Below, one piece after another: positions 20,851 to 33,236 of a DNA stretch of 64,000 bases. The stretch spans positions 47,497,218-47,561,217 of the forward strand of contig NC_068569.1 of NCBI RefSeq assembly GCF_025698545.1. Direction: 5' to 3'. The notes under the pieces were generated by a model. It ran no database searches, had not been told where the DNA came from, and saw nothing but the letters and a program-made list of their open reading frames with translations. Position numbers and translations under genes: made by a program. Positions within the stretch are counted from its first letter, which is position 1. Each line of letters opens with the position of its first letter. This stretch comes from Gossypium raimondii. Its lineage: Eukaryota > Streptophyta > Magnoliopsida > Malvales > Malvaceae.

Positions 20851-21650
20851 CCGGTGAAACTTCAGTCTTATCTCCCTGAAGTTGCAGTGGAGCAGACAGA
20901 AGAAATCAATCCTATCTCCCTGAAGTTGCAGCGGAGTGGATTAACATCCAAATCTTATCTTTCTGAGGTTACAGAGAGCAGATCGCATCCAGTCTTATCT
21001 CCCTGAAGTTGCAGTAGAGCAGGAAGAATAAATCAATCCTATCTCCCTGAAGTTGCAGCGGAGTGGATTAACATCCAGATCTTATCTTTCTGAGGTTGCA
21101 GAGAGCAGATCGCATCCAGTCTTATCTCTCTGAAGTTGCAGTGGAGCAGGAAGAATAAATCAATCCTATCTCCCGGTTGCGGCGAGTGGATTAACATCCA
21201 GATCTTATCTTTCCGAGGTTACGAGAGCGATCGCATCCGCCTTATCTCCCGAAGTTACAATGGAGCGGTGAATAAATCAATCCTATCTCCCGGTTGCGGC
21301 GAGTGGATTAACATCCAGATCTTATCTTTCCGAGGTTGCGAGAGCGATCGCATCCGATCTTATCTCCCGAAGTTGCGGTGGAGCGAGCGAATAAATCAAT
21401 CCTATCTCCCGAAGTTGCGTGAGTGGATTAACATCCAGATCTTATCTTTCTGAGGTTGCAGAGAGCAGATCGCATCCAGTCTTATCTCCCTGAAGTTGCA
21501 GTGGAGCAGGCAGAATAAATCAATCCTATCTCTCTGAAGTTGCAGTGGAGCGGATTAACATCCAGATCTTATTTTTCTGAGGTTGTAGAGAGCAGATCGC
21601 ATCCAGTCTTATCTCCTTAAAGTTACAGTGGAGCAGACTAATGATAGCAA
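20851..21650 (+). repeat. 127-bp tandem repeats in 3' UTR of gypsy copy B
   Basis: Six or so head-to-tail copies of a unit starting CTTATCTCCCTGAAGTTGCA. Unit starts at 20994, 21121, 21241, 21359, 21481 and 21608 give lengths of 127, 120, 118, 122 and 127 bp. Each unit contains two half-units (TCTCCCTGAAGTTGCAG and TCTTTCTGAGGTTGCAG). The three shorter units, 21121-21480, carry an unusual set of changes from about 21174 on (see findings). The 105-codon open frame across it is just a repeat translation. Confidence 0.88.
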
Positions 21651-25008: not shown

Positions 25009-25289
25009 AGTAGATTAGATGAAATCTATGAAACAAAATAAAGTATGGGACATTGTCAAATTGCTAAAAGGTTCAAAATAAGTTGGATGTAAAGGATACA
25101 TGACTCAAATGGAAATATCGAACAATATAGAGCCAGACTTTTTGTCGATGGTTACACTTAGGAGGATTGTATTGATTATAAATGGATGTGAAAACAACAT
25201 TTCTAAACGAAGATCTTAAGGAAGAAGTTTACATGGACCAACTTGAAGGTTTTACAGTTGAAAGAAAATGTCATATGATGTTTAAACTA
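25009..25289 (+). pseudogene. Ty1/copia RT relic, left part
   Basis: Frame-shifting translation gives KSMKQNKVWDIVKLLKGSK (about 25020-25080), then NNIEPDF- and EEVYMDQLEGFTVERKCHMM-like pieces up to FKL at 25281-25289. This is the N-terminal half of a copia reverse transcriptase. Its continuation (SIYGLKQ-type sequence) resumes only at 32860, after the DNA transposon. Confidence 0.8.
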
Positions 25290-25706
25290 CACCAAAACAG
25301 ACTTTTAGCGGCGTTTTTAGTGGCGTTTGGATAAAAAACGCCGCTAAAAATCAATCATTAGCGGCGCAATCTAAAAAACGCCGCTAAAGATCGAGTATTA
25401 GCGGCGCTTTTCTGAAAATGCCGCTAAAAATGAGCATTAGCGGCGTTTTCCAAAAAGCGCCACAAAAACCTAAACCTAACGGTGTCGTTTTCTTGAGTTT
25501 TTGGGGATTTAGCGGCGTTTTTTAAGAAGCGTCGCTAATGCTCTGGTCTTTAGCGGCGTTTTTGAAGAAGCGCCGCTAATGCTCTGGTCTTTAGAGGCGT
25601 TTTTGAAGAAGCGCCGCTAATGCTCCGGTCTTTAGCGGCGTTTTTGAAGAAGCGCCGCTAATGCTAAGGACTTTCGCGGCGTTTTTTAAGAAGCGCCGCT
25701 AAAAAC
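25290..25706. repeat. Left terminal and subterminal hairpin array of the 7.57-kb transposon
   Basis: Repeated TTTAGCGGCGTTTTT...AAGCGCCGCTAA units, regular with a period of about 42-60 bp between 25500 and 25700. Each unit is itself an imperfect palindrome. The outermost about 24 bp match the right end in inverted orientation. Confidence 0.9.
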
Positions 25707-25899
25707 ATTTTATCTTAATTGGTTTATTTATTTAAATAAAATTTAATTTATTTCTAATTGAATATTTAAAATCTTTAGAAAAAAATAATGACACGTAGAA
25801 ATAATTTGAAATAAAACACATGGAAAAATTAAAATACTATTATTTAAAATAATTTTAAAGTTTTTGGGTACATGATTACTAATTGTTTTTAGTTTGTAT

Positions 25900-26500
25900 A
25901 TTAAAATTTTCTTATATAATCGTAAAAGAAATAGTATTAATTTTAAATTATTGAATTAATTATCACTATAGTTTAGGGTTTTAGTTTAGGGAGTATGGGT
26001 TTAGGGATTATGGTTTAAGGGTTGGGATTTAATGTTTAGGGTTAGAGGGTTAGGGGTTTAGGGTTAGATGTGTTAGGGGTTAAGAGTTAGGGATTCAGGG
26101 GTCGGGTTAGGATTTTGGGTTTAGATTAATTTTTTTAATTTATATTTTAAATATGTTCTTATATAATTGTAAAAGAGATAATAATAAATTTGTTTAGGGT
26201 TTTTAGTTTAAGGTATATGATTAATTTAAGATTTAAGGCTGATTTAGGAGTTCATATTTTAAGGTTTAGGGAGTACGGATTTAGGGATTATGGATTAGCG
26301 ATTATGATTTAAGGGTTGGGATGTAAGGTTTAGGGGTTAGGGGTTTAAGGGTTAGATGTTAGTGTTTAAGAGTTAGGGATTTAAGGTTTAGGGATTCAGG
26401 GATCGGGTTAAGGTTTTGAGTTTAGATTAATTATTTTTTAATTTATATTTTAAATATGTTCTTATATAATTGTAAAAGAGATAATAATAAATCAAATATA
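25900..26500. repeat. Duplicated block with telomere-like TTTAGGG variants
   Basis: The phrase CTTATATAATTGTAAAAGA recurs at about 25912, 26158 and 26461. Between these lie two blocks (25975-26130 and 26200-26430) of degenerate TTTAGGG/TTAGGGG motifs. The block was therefore copied in tandem with units of about 250-300 bp. It is internal to the transposon and too irregular to be a real telomere. Confidence 0.7.
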
Positions 26501-27310
26501 TTGAAATTATGAGTATATAGTTTAAATTATTTAAGAGATATATAATAGATAGACTTTATATGTATTGAATGGTTAATTTAGGGTTTAAGGTTAAGGTTTA
26601 CTTGAGATTTGTTAAATGATAAAATTTTATACAATTAATTAATGCTTTTATATTAAAAAATTAATATTTAAATAATATTAGTTTAAATAGAATTAATAAA
26701 TAAGTTAAAAAAGTAATAGATTGATATGGATATTTAGGTATAATTATTTATTTTGGAGAAGACCAAATTATAAGAAAAAATACAAAAATAAAATGATATG
26801 GATATATAGGTAATTATTTAATTAATTTGGATAATTCTAACTTAATAATTAATTACAACCATTTTATCATTTGTTTTCTTATTAAAGTATACAATATTTA
26901 TTTTGAGAGTACTTGGTTTTTTTATTTTATAAAAATTAATTTATAAAAAATTAGAAAATTTTAGCATAGCAAAACAGTGTCATTTGGTTCAAAATTAAAT
27001 AATTGTTAGATAAGCAATAGTGTCGTTTTTTATAAAAAAACTGCAAAAAATAAATCAATTTATAAAAACAAAATAAAAAATTTTTAGCATAGCAAAACGG
27101 TGTCATTTTGTTAAAAATGAAATAATTTTTTGCGGCGTTTTTCATAAAAATGCCGCAAAAGATAATCAATAGCGGCGTTTTTATAATAAATCAATTTATA
27201 AAAAATAAAATAAAAAATTTTCAGCATAGTAAAATAGAAATGAAATAATTTTTTGCGGGCAAAAGATAATCAATAGCGGCGTTTTGACAAAAAAAAAAAC
27301 GCCGCAAATA
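26501..27310. repeat. AT-rich transposon interior with further GCGGCG repeats
   Basis: AT-rich non-coding DNA. From 27060 the phrase AATTTTTAGCATAGCAAAAC and TTTTGCGGCGTTTTT recur three times (about 26950, 27080, 27215). This looks like an inner edge of the left subterminal zone. Confidence 0.6.
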
Positions 27311-28038
27311 TGTGTTAAAATTTTTCAAAACGCTACTCGCTCACCCCCAAAACTTGATTTTTGGTTACCCGCTCATTACTACATCTTCTTGCCATCTCAG
27401 TCGTACGCCCTAAATCCCCAAATAAAAGTTTGTTTTTCTTCAGCTGAAATCCCCCAAATTTCCCATATCCAACAACACCAGTCAATACACCTACACCAAT
27501 CACACTTCTTTTTCTTTTCATTTCACTGCACTGAATTCACTCACCATAGCTACTCCTTTTCTCTCGATCTGTTAGGGTTTCTTTTAATTTTAGGCTTTCA
27601 ATACAGTTTCCTTTTAATTTTACTGGAAGGAGTTGAAAGATAAAGGAAACGAAGAGGGGAGTAAGGCTGTTCGCTGAAATAAAGAGATAAAAAAAAAGGT
27701 TGAAGATGATGATTTTCAGGTTTTTTTTACGGTAAGGTGTTCCACGAGCACCTTCATGGAATTAACTGTGTTAAATGGAGCTGCTTCCTTTTCACTGTTT
27801 ACTTGGCATATTGGTTGGTTACAATGTATAACTCTATCTTTAGTGTAATTTCTTTGCTTTGATTATAGTAATTTGTCTAACCGGGTTGTCACTTGGCTAC
27901 AACTTTTGGAATCCATGGTTTATTGTGTGAGTGGTTTCGATGAAGCTGTGGGGAGTTTGCGATTTCATCTGTTTTAATTTTATCTACATTTTGAGTTATT
28001 AACTCTCATCTTTACACATTTTATATGCTTCCTTTCAG
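27311..28038 (+). other. Promoter/5'UTR-like DNA of unknown origin inside the transposon
   Basis: Pyrimidine-rich, of more balanced composition than its surroundings, with an open frame of 119 codons (27284-27643) that I do not recognise. It ends in a splice acceptor TTTCAG at 28038. It may be a captured upstream region, possibly of the subunit d gene, but nothing here proves it. Confidence 0.35.
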
Positions 28039-28486
28039 GCGTAGAGATCCCCAAGTTTGTTGACACAGTTACTCCTCAATTCAAACCGAAATTTGATGCA
28101 TTGGTGAGAATCAACAGCATTCTTGATCCTCTTTTACCTATCTCAGTGGTTTTGGTTTTCTTTTTCATCATCTGATTTGGTTATTACTTGTGGTTAATAG
28201 TTGGTTGAATTGAAAGAAGAAGAGCAGAAATCTTTGAAAGAGTCCGAGCGTTTGGAGAAAGAAATTGCCGACGTTCAGGAACTGAAGGTAATTGCAAAAC
28301 ACTGCCCAAATGAATCTTCTCTTTATTGTAATTGTAGTTGCAATTGTTGATTTTTGTTCTATTCTTTTTTCTTTATTTGAACAGCAAAAGATCAGCACCA
28401 TGACAATAGATGAGTACTTTGAGAAACATCCCGAACTAAAAAAGAAATTCGATGATGAGATCCGCAATGACAATTGGGGATATTGA
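28039..28486 (+). pseudogene. ATPQ: Captured fragment: mitochondrial ATP synthase subunit d, 3' exons
   Basis: Three exons with good GT-AG borders: 28039-28103 (VEIPKFVDTVTPQFKPKFDA), 28201-28287 (LVELKEEEQKSLKESERLE...) and 28385-28486 (QKISTMTIDEYFEKHPE... ending DNWGY, stop 28484-28486). Together they give about 84 residues, the C-terminal half of plant F1Fo ATP synthase subunit d, a peripheral-stalk protein of the inner mitochondrial membrane. The joined frame has no stop. The N-terminal exons are missing, so no functional protein is expected. It lies within the 25290-32857 transposon, followed by what looks like the native 3' UTR (to about 28750). Confidence 0.85.
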
Positions 28487-28763
28487 GACATGTTTGGTAA
28501 TATAAGGGTCAAGCCACAAACTTGCTACATATGTATGATTAGTAATGACCAGGAAAGGTTTCTCGTATAGAGTTACCTTTATAAAATTATGCATGCTTAG
28601 TATTGTCTTGTTATCAGAGGATCCAATAATCTTAAACCTAAAACTAGTATATCGAATAGCAAGACAGCCTTGTGTAAAGCAACAATTGGTTTTGGAATAT
28701 AATAGACAATATTTCACTTGCAGTTTGTAAAATTGTCTTGATTTTAATAAAAAGAAAATGCAG

Positions 28764-28827
28764 CATGTTGAATTGTCGGCTAGAAGAGATGTATTGAAGA
28801 TCTTCAATGAAGTCATTGATGCTACAG
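28764..28827 (+). pseudogene. Exon-like fragment, unrecognised (SARRDVLKIFNEVID)
   Basis: An acceptor-like ATGCAG precedes and a donor-like ACAG|GTAAAA follows a clean frame reading HVELSARRDVLKIFNEVIDA. A second short piece (GENGSIRLFK, about 29042-29072, before GTAGTT) may be its next exon. I do not recognise the source gene. It could be a fourth captured gene. Confidence 0.4.
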
Positions 28828-29122
28828 GTAAAAAATAGACTTTTGGTTCTTTAAAGTATATTGTACTCTCTCATTTATTTTCTTTTGAGGTAATGATGTA
28901 AATTAAGGCTAATGAGCTGTCAGATATGGTTGACAATGGTTAAATAAATACTAAGAAAAACAAAGTATTGTTGTCTATCTCTTGTTTTGTAAGTCAACTG
29001 TTTTAGTTTTATTTTTTTGGTTTTTCATGGTTGAACTGAACTGGAGAAAATGGCTCTATCCGATTGTTCAAGGTAGTTTCATAAGCTAAAACTCAACCAC
29101 TGTGATATGCATGTCAATGCAG

Positions 29123-29284
29123 TGTCGGGAGGCTTGTTCATATTGATTTTGGTTTCATCTTGGAAACATCACCTGGTGGAAATATGCGGTTCAAGAGTGC
29201 ACATTTCAAGTTGAGCCATGAGATGACTCAATTACTAGACCCATCGGGAGTTATGAAAAGTGAAACCTGGGACAACTTTGTAAG
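29123..29284 (+). pseudogene. PI4KA: Captured fragment: phosphatidylinositol 4-kinase alpha, kinase-domain exon
   Basis: One exon between ATGCAG (29122) and AAG|GTGATT (29284) encodes VGRLVHIDFGFILETSPGGN and continues MRFKSAHFKLSHEMTQLLDP. This is the activation-loop region (DFG motif) of PI4-kinase alpha, a lipid kinase that makes PI4P at the plasma membrane. Only about 53 residues of a very large protein are present. A possible decayed start of the following exon is seen near 29391. The fragment sits inside the transposon between the subunit d and VPS35 pieces, in the same orientation. Confidence 0.82.
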
Positions 29285-30559
29285 GTGATTTCTTCTTTGC
29301 TCGATTTTATACTTCTATCTTATCTGCATACCTTTCATTTTATCTTTATTGTCCAAGTCATGTGAGTTTTTTCTTTGTCAAATGCTTGCAGCTTGTGGTT
29401 TGAGTTTTTTCATTTTATCTGCATACCTTTCATCTCATCTTATTTCTATATACAGCGATGACATATTAACTGCTTATTAGTAAAATCCACAAGATCATAC
29501 ATGCAGGCACAACATCATATATGATGATGTGGTTTGATTTACTAGTGAAGTTACTTGTGCATGTGTCTTGTTACAGGATAATCATTCCTAGGTACTGTAA
29601 TGAATATTTTACTTAGTAAGTTCCTCTTTTCTTATATATAAAAATACAAATTTAACTATTTAATAATAGAATAACAAAAAATCAAATTTTGAAAACATCT
29701 AAAATTTTATAATTGAATGAGTATCCTTATAGTATATATTTTTAAAAAGTACATATTATATTTTTAATTGATATTTGAATAAATATTTTAAAAAAATAAA
29801 GAAAGAGTTAGAAGAAAGGTGAGAGGCTTGTGAAGATATCTAAAAGGAATAACAAGTTGGGGACGTGAAATGCAGTCATTGAACAGATTTGAGAAATGGA
29901 ATATTATAAGAATAGGTATTAATTAATTAGTATATTAGCTGGAGTAGAAGCCACTGGTATCTTGCGTTTCAAGTACAAGTACCTTTTATTATTTTTATTT
30001 TTATTATTATTTTTTCTAAAATATACACAATCATGGGACACGTAACCAAATAATTACGCCTCCCTTCACTATTATATTAGGGTAAAATATAAGAACAGTG
30101 ACTTAATTATATGATTTATTCTATTTTAGTCGCTAATTATTCATTTTATTTAATTATTTAATTTTTGAAATTAAATATTTAATACATTCTCTCATTAGTT
30201 GTAGATGAGTGATTGAAAAGTTGTCGTGAGTTTTTTATTAGTCTAATAACAAATTTAATCCTCTAATATTTATATGTTATATTAATTTAATTCTAAATTT
30301 AAAAAATTCAACGATCCTTAATTCTCATATATATATATATATATATATTGTGTTTATATATTTGTTTTATAATTATATATTTTGATATGTTAATATAAAT
30401 TAGCATCTGATATATTGTGAGTATTAAATTTTAATTCCACAAGTGGAATTAAAACGTTATCAGATGTTTTATTTTTATAATACTGATTTTCTTTTTATAC
30501 TACAATCTAATAACTTATATCACATTATGCAAAAGACACTCTAATAGCCCTTCTTTCAG
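29285..30559. other. AT-rich spacer between captured fragments
   Basis: Non-coding, with a short (AT)n at about 30328-30349 and (TTA)-rich runs near 29990. It contains a generic plant AT-rich repeat (about 30075-30300). The last bases are the acceptor of the first VPS35 exon (TTTCAG, 30559). Confidence 0.6.
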
Positions 30560-31923
30560 ATCATTGAGTCCCTTCCAGCTGTTCCATCCCCTGAACTTGC
30601 ATTAAGGTTGTACCTGCAATGTGTTGAGGTAATCTTGAGTCTTGACTTAAACCAACTCTGCATAACAGTCATTGGTTAAATAGTGAATTGAACCCTGAAA
30701 ATTATTTTAGATGATAACAAATTTTATTGAACTTCAAGAGATGCCATTTTTCTAATTGATAATTGGGAAAAGGCATACTGAGATAAATAATGTTGCTCAC
30801 GAGAGTGCAAGGTTTCTGATGGAACAAGTGCTTACAAGAATAAATAGCTTTATTTGTGACATTCTTAGTGCTGTTACCAATGTTCCATTAATTTATTATG
30901 TTGATTCCAAGCATTAGGGATCAATAATTTTATTTTAAAATGATGCGAAGGGGGTGCTGTCGTCATAAATCTCCCATCATTATGACTTTTAAGTTTAATG
31001 AATGGCATATTATCATTATGATATTAGCAATATATGCATAGTGAACAGTATTGCAGGCTTTGTCTTTGGTTATATTCCTTTTTGATGAAGAGAGGCTTGA
31101 ATTTTATGTTTAACTTTTTAACATGTATTTTGTCCTTGTTCTGTTTCCTGACTATCAGGCAGCTAATGGCTGTGATATTGAGCATGTTGCGTATGAATTT
31201 TTCACACAAGCGTTTTTATTATATGAAGAAGAAATTGCGGTAATTGTACTACTCAGATAAGCTATTGTTGAAGTCTGTTATGCCTTTCTAATTTGTGTAG
31301 AGTTTCATGAATGTTTATTGATCATAGGACTCTAAAGCCCAAGTGACTGCAATTCATCTGATAATTGGGACTCTCCAGAGGATGAATGTATTTGGTGTTG
31401 AGAACAGAGATACTTTGACACACAAAGCCACAGGAGTAATATTGCTTCCTCTTCTCTGATTCATTGTACTTCATTGAACTGTTTATAAAAAAAACTTAAA
31501 TATGTGTTACTTTGGTCAGTATTCAGCTCGGCTATTGAAGAAGGCTGATCAGTGCAGAGCTGTTTATGCATGTTCCCATCTATTTTGGGTTGATGATCAG
31601 GATGGCATAAAGGACGGGGAGAGGTCTGGCCTCAAAACTTGTCCTTTGGTTTAGATTTTTTTTCATGTAAACATTAAATTCATTCTAACAATAAGAAACT
31701 GAAAAAATTTGCGGTAGAGGTTGCAGGGTCCTCTAACAATAAGCAAATCACCAGTTCTGCAATCCAAGGGCTGATAGAATTAATTAATACTGAGATGCAA
31801 AGTGATTCCACAAACCCTGATAGTGTGGCGGATGCTTTCCTTGCCAGCACCTTGCGTTACATTCAGTTCCAAAAACAACAAGGCGGTGTAGTGGGTGAGA
31901 AATTCGATTCCGTTAAACTGTAA
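30560..31923 (+). pseudogene. VPS35: Captured fragment: VPS35 retromer subunit, C-terminal exons
   Basis: Exons 30560-30628 (PELALRLYLQCVE), 31159-31239 (CDIEHVAYEFFTQAFLLYEE), 31328-31435 (SKAQVTAIHLIIGTLQRMNV...), 31520-31623 (YSARLLKKADQCRAVYACSH...) and a last exon to TAA 31921-31923 (AIQGLIELINTEMQ...). This is the C-terminal alpha-solenoid of plant VPS35, the cargo-binding core of retromer on endosomes. The exon that should follow 31623 is absent. Its place is taken by a short fused segment, about 31716-31743, reading VAGSSNNK into QITSSAIQ, so an internal deletion has occurred. The N-terminal two thirds are missing. Confidence 0.87.
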
Positions 31924-32449
31924 ATTGTTGAGTCAAGTAAAGAAGTAATGCATGGCAGTTAGAGATGTAAATAGTCGTTTATTCTGGATTTGGATTTCAT
32001 ATTTGCTTGATTATATCTTTTATTAAACTGTAAATTATTGAGTCATGTAAATTGTATTATATCTTTTATTACCAAGATTTACTTGATTAAGAAAATGCAT
32101 TGTATTTTTATTACCTTGCAATGCGATAATCATAGGCTTGTTCAACAAGTCGTCTGTTGTTCATATGTATTATTTATTTTAGTTTTGATTTTAAATTTTA
32201 TTTTTACTTTAATATTTACGATAATTTGAGTTCTAACTTTTAGATTTTAATTGTGTTATTAATTTATTATTTTAAATTCTAAAACTAAATTCATTAATTT
32301 TATATTTAATTTTAAAGTTAAAATTTTATAGAAAATTTAATTTAAATAATATTTTTATCCTTAAAAGTATATTTTAAAGTTCAAATTTAAAAAATAAAAT
32401 AAAATGAAATATTTATCATAAAAATAAATATTATTTGATTAAAATATAT
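31924..32449. other. VPS35 3' flank and AT-rich DNA inside the transposon
   Basis: Begins as the probable native VPS35 3' UTR (a partial duplication of AAACTGTAAATTGTTGAGTC at 31915 and 32024), then grades into AT-rich non-coding DNA up to the right subterminal array. Confidence 0.5.
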
Positions 32450-32857
32450 TTTTTAAAGGTTATGTTTTTAGCAGCGTTTTTGCGAGAAGCGCCGGTAAAG
32501 GTTTATTCTTTAGCGGCATTTGTGATAAAAGTGCCGCTAAAGGTTAGAGTCTTTAGCGGCGTTTTTGGAAGAAGCGCGCTAAAGGTCTTGGTCTTTAGCG
32601 GCGTTTGTGGGAGAAGCGCCGCTAAAGGTCTTGGTCTTTAGCGGCGTTTGTGGGAGAAGCGCCGCTAAAGGTCATGGTCTTTAGCGGCATTTGTGGAAAA
32701 AGCGCCGCTAAAGGTCTTGGTCTTTAGCGGCGTTTGTTGGAAAAGCGCCGCTAAAGTTAGCGACGCTGTCATTAGCGGCATTTTTTGCGGTGCTTCTCTA
32801 AGCGCCGCTAATACTTTTAGTGACGCTAAAAAGCGCCGCTAAAAGCCTATTTTGGTG
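32450..32857. repeat. Right subterminal hairpin array of the 7.57-kb transposon
   Basis: About seven units of roughly 43-44 bp: TCTTTAGCGGCGTTTGTGGG followed by AGAAGCGCCGCTAAAGG. Each unit is an imperfect palindrome. The right end GCCTATTTTGGTG mirrors the left end. Confidence 0.9.
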
Positions 32858-32859
32858 TA

Positions 32860-33236
32860 AGAAGTAAATATATAGACTTCAACAAGGTTCATGGCAACGA
32901 TACATCAAGTTTAACGATACCATAAAGATTTTTGGCTTTCAAGAAAACATTGTTGATTGATGTATATACCAACAGATCAATAAGAGCAAGTTTATTTTCT
33001 TAGTTTTATATATTGATAATATTTTACTTGCTGCAAATGATTATGGTATATTGCATGAGACAAAAGTTTTCTCTCGAATAACTTTGAAATGAAACATATG
33101 GGAAAGGCATCCTATGTAATAGGAATTGAAATATTATGTGATAGATCATAAGGATTGTTAGGATTGTCTAAAAAATAACGTGTCAAAAGAGTTATGGAGA
33201 GATTTAATATGCATGATTGTTTAGCAAGGATTGCCA
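32860..33236 (+). pseudogene. Ty1/copia RT relic, right part
   Basis: Resumes the copia RT frame: a decayed [14 protein letters not shown]-like start, then KFNDTIKIFGFQEN, FIFLVLYIDNILLAAN (active-site YVDD read as YIDN, about 33007-33030) and NFEMKHMGKASYVIGIEI. Stops are present. It joins logically to 25009-25289. Confidence 0.82.

Follow-up and report, generated by a model that had tools for sequence, protein, structure and literature searches.

A Pack-CACTA transposon of Gossypium raimondii carrying pieces of several host genes within a copia relic

Introduction

How did pieces of several unrelated host genes come to lie side by side within the remains of a copia reverse transcriptase (RT) gene? 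This question is raised by w25290-32857 of a 64,000-nucleotide stretch of Gossypium raimondii DNA (G000:C5:47497218-47561217, the whole of which is referred to as the window; w denotes a position in it). A first-pass annotation, made from the letters alone, had described the segment as a multi-gene Pack-type DNA transposon. Here, it was followed up in a single genome (750.8 Mb in 281 contigs, with C1-C13 of 48-63 Mb each; all contigs named below belong to it). We found that w25290-32857 is a single non-autonomous Pack-CACTA DNA transposon inside a copia RT relic, and that its cargo pieces likely derive from four host loci on three chromosomes (C1, C4 and C11). The way in which Pack-type transposons acquire genes is still under debate. 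Because likely source genes, sister types and final products of this family can be studied within one genome, at ~1-7% divergence, it is possible to inspect the capture joints at single-base level and to weigh rival models against each other.

Results

Identity of the element

The inverted ends of the element (CACCAAAAYAGRCTTTTAGCGGCG) form a matching pair, in which CACCAAAACAGACTTTTAGCGGCG starts at 25290 and its inverted partner CACCAAAATAGGCTTTTAGCGGCG ends at 32857. As the annotation had noted, hairpin subterminal arrays are present on both sides (w25508-25702 and 32454-32760), with units of 41 and 43 bp. Judging from matches to the end sequences, the family is large (2390 first-look candidates genome-wide for the left end and 2270 for the right end, 40 of each scored), and the members found included six complete relatives with varied cargo.

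The annotation had further assigned the element to a family with GCGGCG ends, which had to be revised. CACTA was found directly outside the inverted-end sequence in 30 of 38 fetched end loci (6/8 left and 24/30 right), which read CACTACACC, and thus the family terminus is CACTACACCAAAA. The other eight end loci comprised the window's own two, five variants and one without a match. The terminal motif CACTA/G is therefore a property of the family, clipped at both ends in the window copy. All six complete relatives, that is, those with both ends within the fetched DNA (C1:24.61, C1:33.60, C13:4.80, C3:10.34, C6:52.23 Mb and C193:67422-79091), were flanked by a 3-bp target site duplication (TSD), and the window copy has none. 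The C3:10.34 Mb relative has two right ends, of which only the inner one gives the duplication. The relative at C193:67422-79091 (11,670 bp) encodes TNP2 (PF02992, E 1.5e-42), DUF4218 and DUF4216 in separate open reading frames (ORFs); its left end is 77% identical to that of the window element over ~180 bp, so that it represents a related, not the same, subfamily. CACTA termini, 3-bp TSDs and a TNP2-encoding relative place the element in the CACTA superfamily, of which its subterminal repeats are a further trait. No transposase was detected in the window element itself when all 20 ORFs of ≥60 aa were searched against Pfam, the sole match being PI4K.

Sources of the captured pieces

The likely source loci lie apart from one another (C1:15.70 Mb, C1:19.41 Mb, C4:3.38 Mb and C11:34.53 Mb), and the captured fragments aligned to them at 93-99% identity. 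Counting introns, the ATP synthase subunit d (ATP-d) piece (w27708-28520) matched C1:19413547-19414359 at 98.0% identity; this locus additionally contains a first exon that starts with MSGAGKK. For PI4K-alpha, w29087-29397 was 99% identical to C4:3378565-3378875, which is collinear with another PI4K gene, at C3:60.04 Mb; the latter gene (88%) was an initial candidate source and was superseded. Likewise, w30517-32009 was 96-97% identical to a VPS35 gene at C1:15.70 Mb. This gene is collinear over 3.1 kb with another VPS35 gene, on C5 (C5:14.95 Mb, 73%), and replaced it as candidate source. A fourth piece, w28503-29097, matched at 93% identity the sequence that lies downstream of a protein-kinase ORF at C11:34.53 Mb (only a kinase domain in Pfam, read by eye as a lectin-type receptor kinase). 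The first-pass annotation had recognized three unrelated genes on the plus strand; the ATP-d, PI4K and VPS35 pieces are all on this strand, with VPS35 and PI4K each in two blocks, but the kinase flank had been overlooked and the source loci number four. Kimura distances between the window and the source loci were 1.65% for ATP-d, 3.4% for the kinase flank, 2.9% for VPS35, 0.7% for PI4K (293 sites) and 6.7% for PI4K block b (112 sites).

Introns were kept with GT-AG edges, as reported previously (donors GT 7/7, acceptors AG 8/8, with exon edges placed by eye and the last VPS35 exon outside the count). Retention of introns and 98.0% identity to the source ATP-d gene indicate that capture occurred at the DNA level rather than through mRNA, which agrees with the annotation. 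In Pfam, the cargo matched VPS35 (PF03635, E 1e-41), ATP synthase d (PF05873, E 5e-5) and PI4K (PF00454, E 8e-5), the latter two under the gathering score (short pieces), and nothing in Pfam matched the last VPS35 exon. A PDB search matched the PI4K exon to PI4KA/PI4KB and gave no match for the ATP-d piece. DNA matches to source genes identify the cargo better than Pfam.

ATP-d matches of 75-78% were also observed at 12 other loci which share both ends, w28006 and w28514, and at a 13th which shares one end; these apparently represent another, older amplified ATP-d fragment family.

Capture joints

The four captured pieces abut directly, with no transposon sequence between them. The PI4K/VPS35 joint has a 29-bp filler, which from 29401 onwards consists of three overlapping repeats of the adjoining PI4K sequence (11 bp from w29363, 13 bp from w29333 and 12 bp from w29320), the last of which continues 7 bp (CTTTCAT) into VPS35. 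The resulting 19-bp run was reached in 0/1000 shuffles; this chance test applies to the 19-bp run only, and runs of 13 and 11 bp account for most of the other filler. The kinase flank and PI4K overlap by 8 bp (AACTCAAC). Patched filler at one joint and the 8-bp overlap at another favour template switching during repair as the origin of at least two joints. The other joints that could be resolved (all but the transposon/ATP-d, AT-rich and VPS35/right-end joints) weigh against this reading: ATP-d and the kinase flank share only ~3 bp, and a few bases without evident origin separate VPS35a from PI4Kb.

Relatives and order of captures

The full cargo was also found at C1:33597274-33604743 (TSD GCA), which is 1.2-1.3% apart from the window in VPS35 and ATP-d and 0.2% in the kinase flank. 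It was present again at C193:63 kb, where VPS35 is split by a TNP2 element; no left end was seen within the fetched stretch of this copy. Its right end, at C193:80401, lacks TAGTG (GGTGTAAAAATAT), and its subterminal sequence differs from the window's. A further copy at C193:137 kb, interrupted by a 5.7-kb insert, contains ATP-d, the kinase flank and PI4K as far as ~w29245; VPS35 was not seen within the 10 kb fetched. With 40 of 118 candidates scored, ATP-d was seen joined to the kinase flank in at least four copies (window, C1 and two on C193).

VPS35 was compared in 13 element copies (window, C1:33.60 Mb, C193:63 kb and ten partial-cargo copies), leaving out three further matches (C4:33.58, C10:54.05 and C3:11.11 Mb). 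The right end was seen in 11 of these copies; in two the fetched stretch stops short of it. All 13 lack the same 222 bp of the VPS35 source gene (L057 bases 2714-2935), with exact endpoints in eight and inside larger deletions in five, and both VPS35 genes retain them, which argues for a single VPS35 capture. With this deletion, the parental splice sites read the window VPS35 as a product ending in GIKDGERVL at an early stop. PI4K is joined to VPS35 in sister element types, and the joint with its filler occurred in the window and 6/6 other element loci (L040, L041, L042, L043, L049 and L050; L043 with one change) and in 0/4 gene loci.

We infer that these relatives permit a partial ordering of captures. 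However, the tree of VPS35 pieces puts the two VPS35 genes beside A-type copies (support 0.66), which weighs against our ordering and makes it tentative for the early events. The PI4K-VPS35a part of the window agrees with A-type elements (L042/L043; C4:20.18 and C6:37.56 Mb), and the PI4Kb-AT-rich-VPS35b part agrees with B-type elements (L053/L058/L059; C13:12.60, C9:25.79 and C6:8.27 Mb). By these matches, the window element looks like a hybrid, or mosaic, of the two sister element types.

Other cargo is carried in the family too, because a complete sister element at C3:10344898-10351416 (L068) holds leucine-rich repeat-coding pieces (Pfam LRR) on the minus strand of the contig. The element at C1:24614063-24620272 contains 315 bp (L067 2483-2797) identical to contig C280 (676,078 bp), which we take to be probably the mitochondrial genome; it thus appears that organelle DNA has entered this CACTA element. 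C12:49.38 and C13:44.71 Mb match across the same L067 bases at 97-98%.

Insertion into the copia relic

The copia RT frame ends with MFKL, its last position being 25289, and beyond the element RT-like sequence picks up again (IYRLQQGSWQRYIKFN); this interruption had been correctly recognized by the annotation. Eight sites were fetched among 40 other matches listed for the right-hand copia flank, and in 8/8 of these copia relatives the empty site AAACT-TA(A/C/T)(G/A)AAGT was uninterrupted. The window site reads AAACT-ACACC...GGTG-TAAGAAGT, compared with the empty AAACT-TAAGAAG, and nothing of the target is lost or duplicated. Depending on whether the overlaps ACT and TA are assigned to target or element, the element has lost 1-4 bases from its left terminus and 3-5 from its right. 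Clipped termini, no target duplication and an intact target suggest end joining of an excised element as the simplest account of the insertion.

A TA target duplication (mariner-like) read from the window ends was rejected: relatives carry CACTA outside CACCAAAA, and the right-hand TA belongs to the target in copia relatives.

Discussion

Proposed origin and alternatives

The best explanation overall, and one that we consider probable, is a Pack-CACTA element built by captures and mobilised in trans, of which the window hybrid was inserted without target duplication. An ancestral CACTA element would have gained the VPS35 and PI4K-alpha pieces, and the ATP-d piece and kinase downstream flank were probably gained later. 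Broken or gapped element DNA may have been repaired by copying unrelated loci, with short overlaps guiding the template switches. The element would then have multiplied with a TNP2-type transposase supplied in trans, and the window copy, a hybrid of two sister structures, would have been joined into a break in the copia relic by end joining. Template switching, trans-mobilisation, end-joining insertion and capture order are steps that we infer individually. Near-identical cargo with a TSD at another locus (C1:33.60 Mb) points to trans mobility of window-type elements. On the other side, introns or breaks divide the TNP2 domains of the C193 relative among separate ORFs, and this relative is only a putative source of transposase for the window family. 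It is possible rather than probable that the family captures genes mainly by chromosome-hopping repair synthesis (short overlaps and patched filler; polymerase-theta-type end joining) instead of fusion of neighbours, and that its excised elements re-enter by end joining without TSDs.

The assignment to a multi-gene Pack-type DNA transposon is supported. The likely source loci are non-adjacent and paired ends with TSDs occur in six relatives; hence, neither fragments adjacent without terminal repeats nor ends occurring always as separate short elements were seen in this genome. Pack-MULEs and gene-carrying Helitrons differ from CACTA elements in termini, target duplication and transposase. They share with the window element the capture of gene fragments (PMC1947982), but 3-bp TSDs in 6/6 relatives, the CACTA termini and the TNP2 relative make either identity extremely improbable, and TSDs of 9 bp would be expected of Mutator elements (PMC4423477). 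A closer rival is the published Pack-CACTA model, in which two nearby members and the host DNA between them are mobilised as one, with loss of the internal ends, and this happens repeatedly. Such fusion would fit the internal GCGGCG array at 27130-27310 and, to the detriment of our reading, would also explain the combination of A-type and B-type parts, AB/BB hybrids being described together with the model (PMC8903248). We nevertheless regard it as unlikely here, because four pieces from four loci on three chromosomes lie next to each other with no intervening transposon sequence, and because patched filler is present at one of their joints and an 8-bp overlap at another. With regard to the insertion, the window copy may instead have entered canonically with a 3-bp TSD, and slippage between short repeats would later have removed a few bases from both ends. 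Later small terminal deletions could indeed yield an outcome without TSD, which counts against end joining; besides the window's two, 5/38 end loci deviate from CACTA and one has no match, and a right end without TAGTG is likewise seen in the C193 copy. Two independent small deletions would, however, need to yield a target exactly like that of the 8/8 fetched copia relatives, and we give this course a real but lesser chance. If the end-joining reading is true, a genuine transposon copy could lack a target duplication, and copies of this sort would be overlooked by annotation that relies on TSDs.

Comparison with known elements

Multi-gene Pack-CACTA elements are a well-documented kind; the interest of the present case lies in its readable capture joints and its odd insertion. 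Tgm-Express1 of soybean, a 5.7-kb CACTA element with five host gene fragments and spliced chimeric transcripts (PMC1947982), is a precedent that makes the window element one of an already known kind. Both contain several exon-intron fragments of unrelated host genes (5.7 vs 7.6 kb). Tgm-Express1 is located within an intron of an expressed gene, and chimeric transcripts of it have been demonstrated, whereas the window element lies in a copia relic and draws on at least four source loci, the chimeric transcript envisaged for it in the annotation being hypothetical. Pack-CACTA elements of Arabidopsis, rice and maize resemble the window family in being non-autonomous, with host fragments from several source loci per element, sisters with nested cargo, and hybrids (PMC8903248). 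Unlike the window family, they show no patched filler or 8-bp overlap in the portion of that report used for comparison; the window copy also differs in having no TSD, and the CACTA set of that report has 5-nt TSDs compared with 3 bp here. Chenopodium CACTA elements also carry captured host gene fragments, but these lie in elements keeping a transposase domain (PMC8978399), none of which was detected in the window element. GrTEdb lists 275 CACTAs, and the portion of its description that was consulted has no mention of "Pack-" or "gene fragment" (PMC5467567). Within the literature searches made, no paper was titled on cotton Pack-CACTA and none paired Pack-TIR with Gossypium.

Structure of the element and other features of the window

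Features of the element and its flanks are listed in Table 1. An ORF over the leader-like repeat had no Pfam match. The AT-rich block common with B-type elements was found at one other locus (C3:54.08 Mb, 84%), and its interior (~30080-30312) is repeat-like, with matches of 73-81%. Degenerate TTTAGGG repeats in the left half of the element (~25984-26420) are telomere-like.

Table 1. Features of the Pack-CACTA element and the flanking copia relic (window coordinates)
Feature	Position	Strand	Remarks
Copia RT relic, left flank	25040..25289	+	
Left terminal inverted repeat	25290..25313	+	CACTA precedes in most relatives; here 1-4 outermost bases gone, by ownership of overlap ACT
Left subterminal array, AGCGGCG..CGCCGCTAA hairpin units	25305..25702	.	
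AT-rich left interior of family	25703..27337	.	Degenerate TTTAGGG repeats and second small GCGGCG array (27130-27310)
Family-internal leader-like repeat	27338..27707	+	Whole or partial matches at many other loci, 80-93%
ATP synthase subunit d piece	27708..28511	+	Intron and exons 28039-28103, 28201-28287, 28385-28486 (stop)
Kinase-gene downstream flank piece	28503..29097	+	93% to C11:34.53 Mb
PI4K-alpha piece	29089..29397	+	Exon 29123-29284; 99% to C4:3.378 Mb gene; 8-bp overlap with kinase flank
Filler, 29 bp	29398..29426	+	Patches of PI4K sequence
VPS35 block a, upstream part of VPS35 gene	29427..29510	+	94% to C1:15.70 Mb gene
PI4K block b, part further upstream in same PI4K gene	29519..29630	+	95%
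AT-rich block, 888 bp, common with B-type elements	29630..30517	.	
VPS35 block b	30517..32009	+	Exons 30560-30628, 31159-31239, 31328-31435, 31520-31623, then altered last exon (222-bp deletion at 31733/31738, leading to a stop)
AT-rich right interior	32010..32453	.	First part matches many other loci
Right subterminal array, 43-bp hairpin units	32454..32833	.	
Right terminal inverted repeat	32834..32857	-	3-5 bases of terminal TAGTG gone, by ownership of overlap TA
Copia RT relic, right flank	32858..33210	+	

Elsewhere in the window, a reading frame at w61550-62185 contains a disease-resistance protein winged-helix domain (PF23559, E 5e-20). Two tandem arrays with similar units (CTTATCTCCCTGAAGTTGCAG) were observed at w2611-3473 and 20863-21636, ~18 kb apart and with long ORFs between them; they are perhaps repeats within the long terminal repeats of one retroelement.

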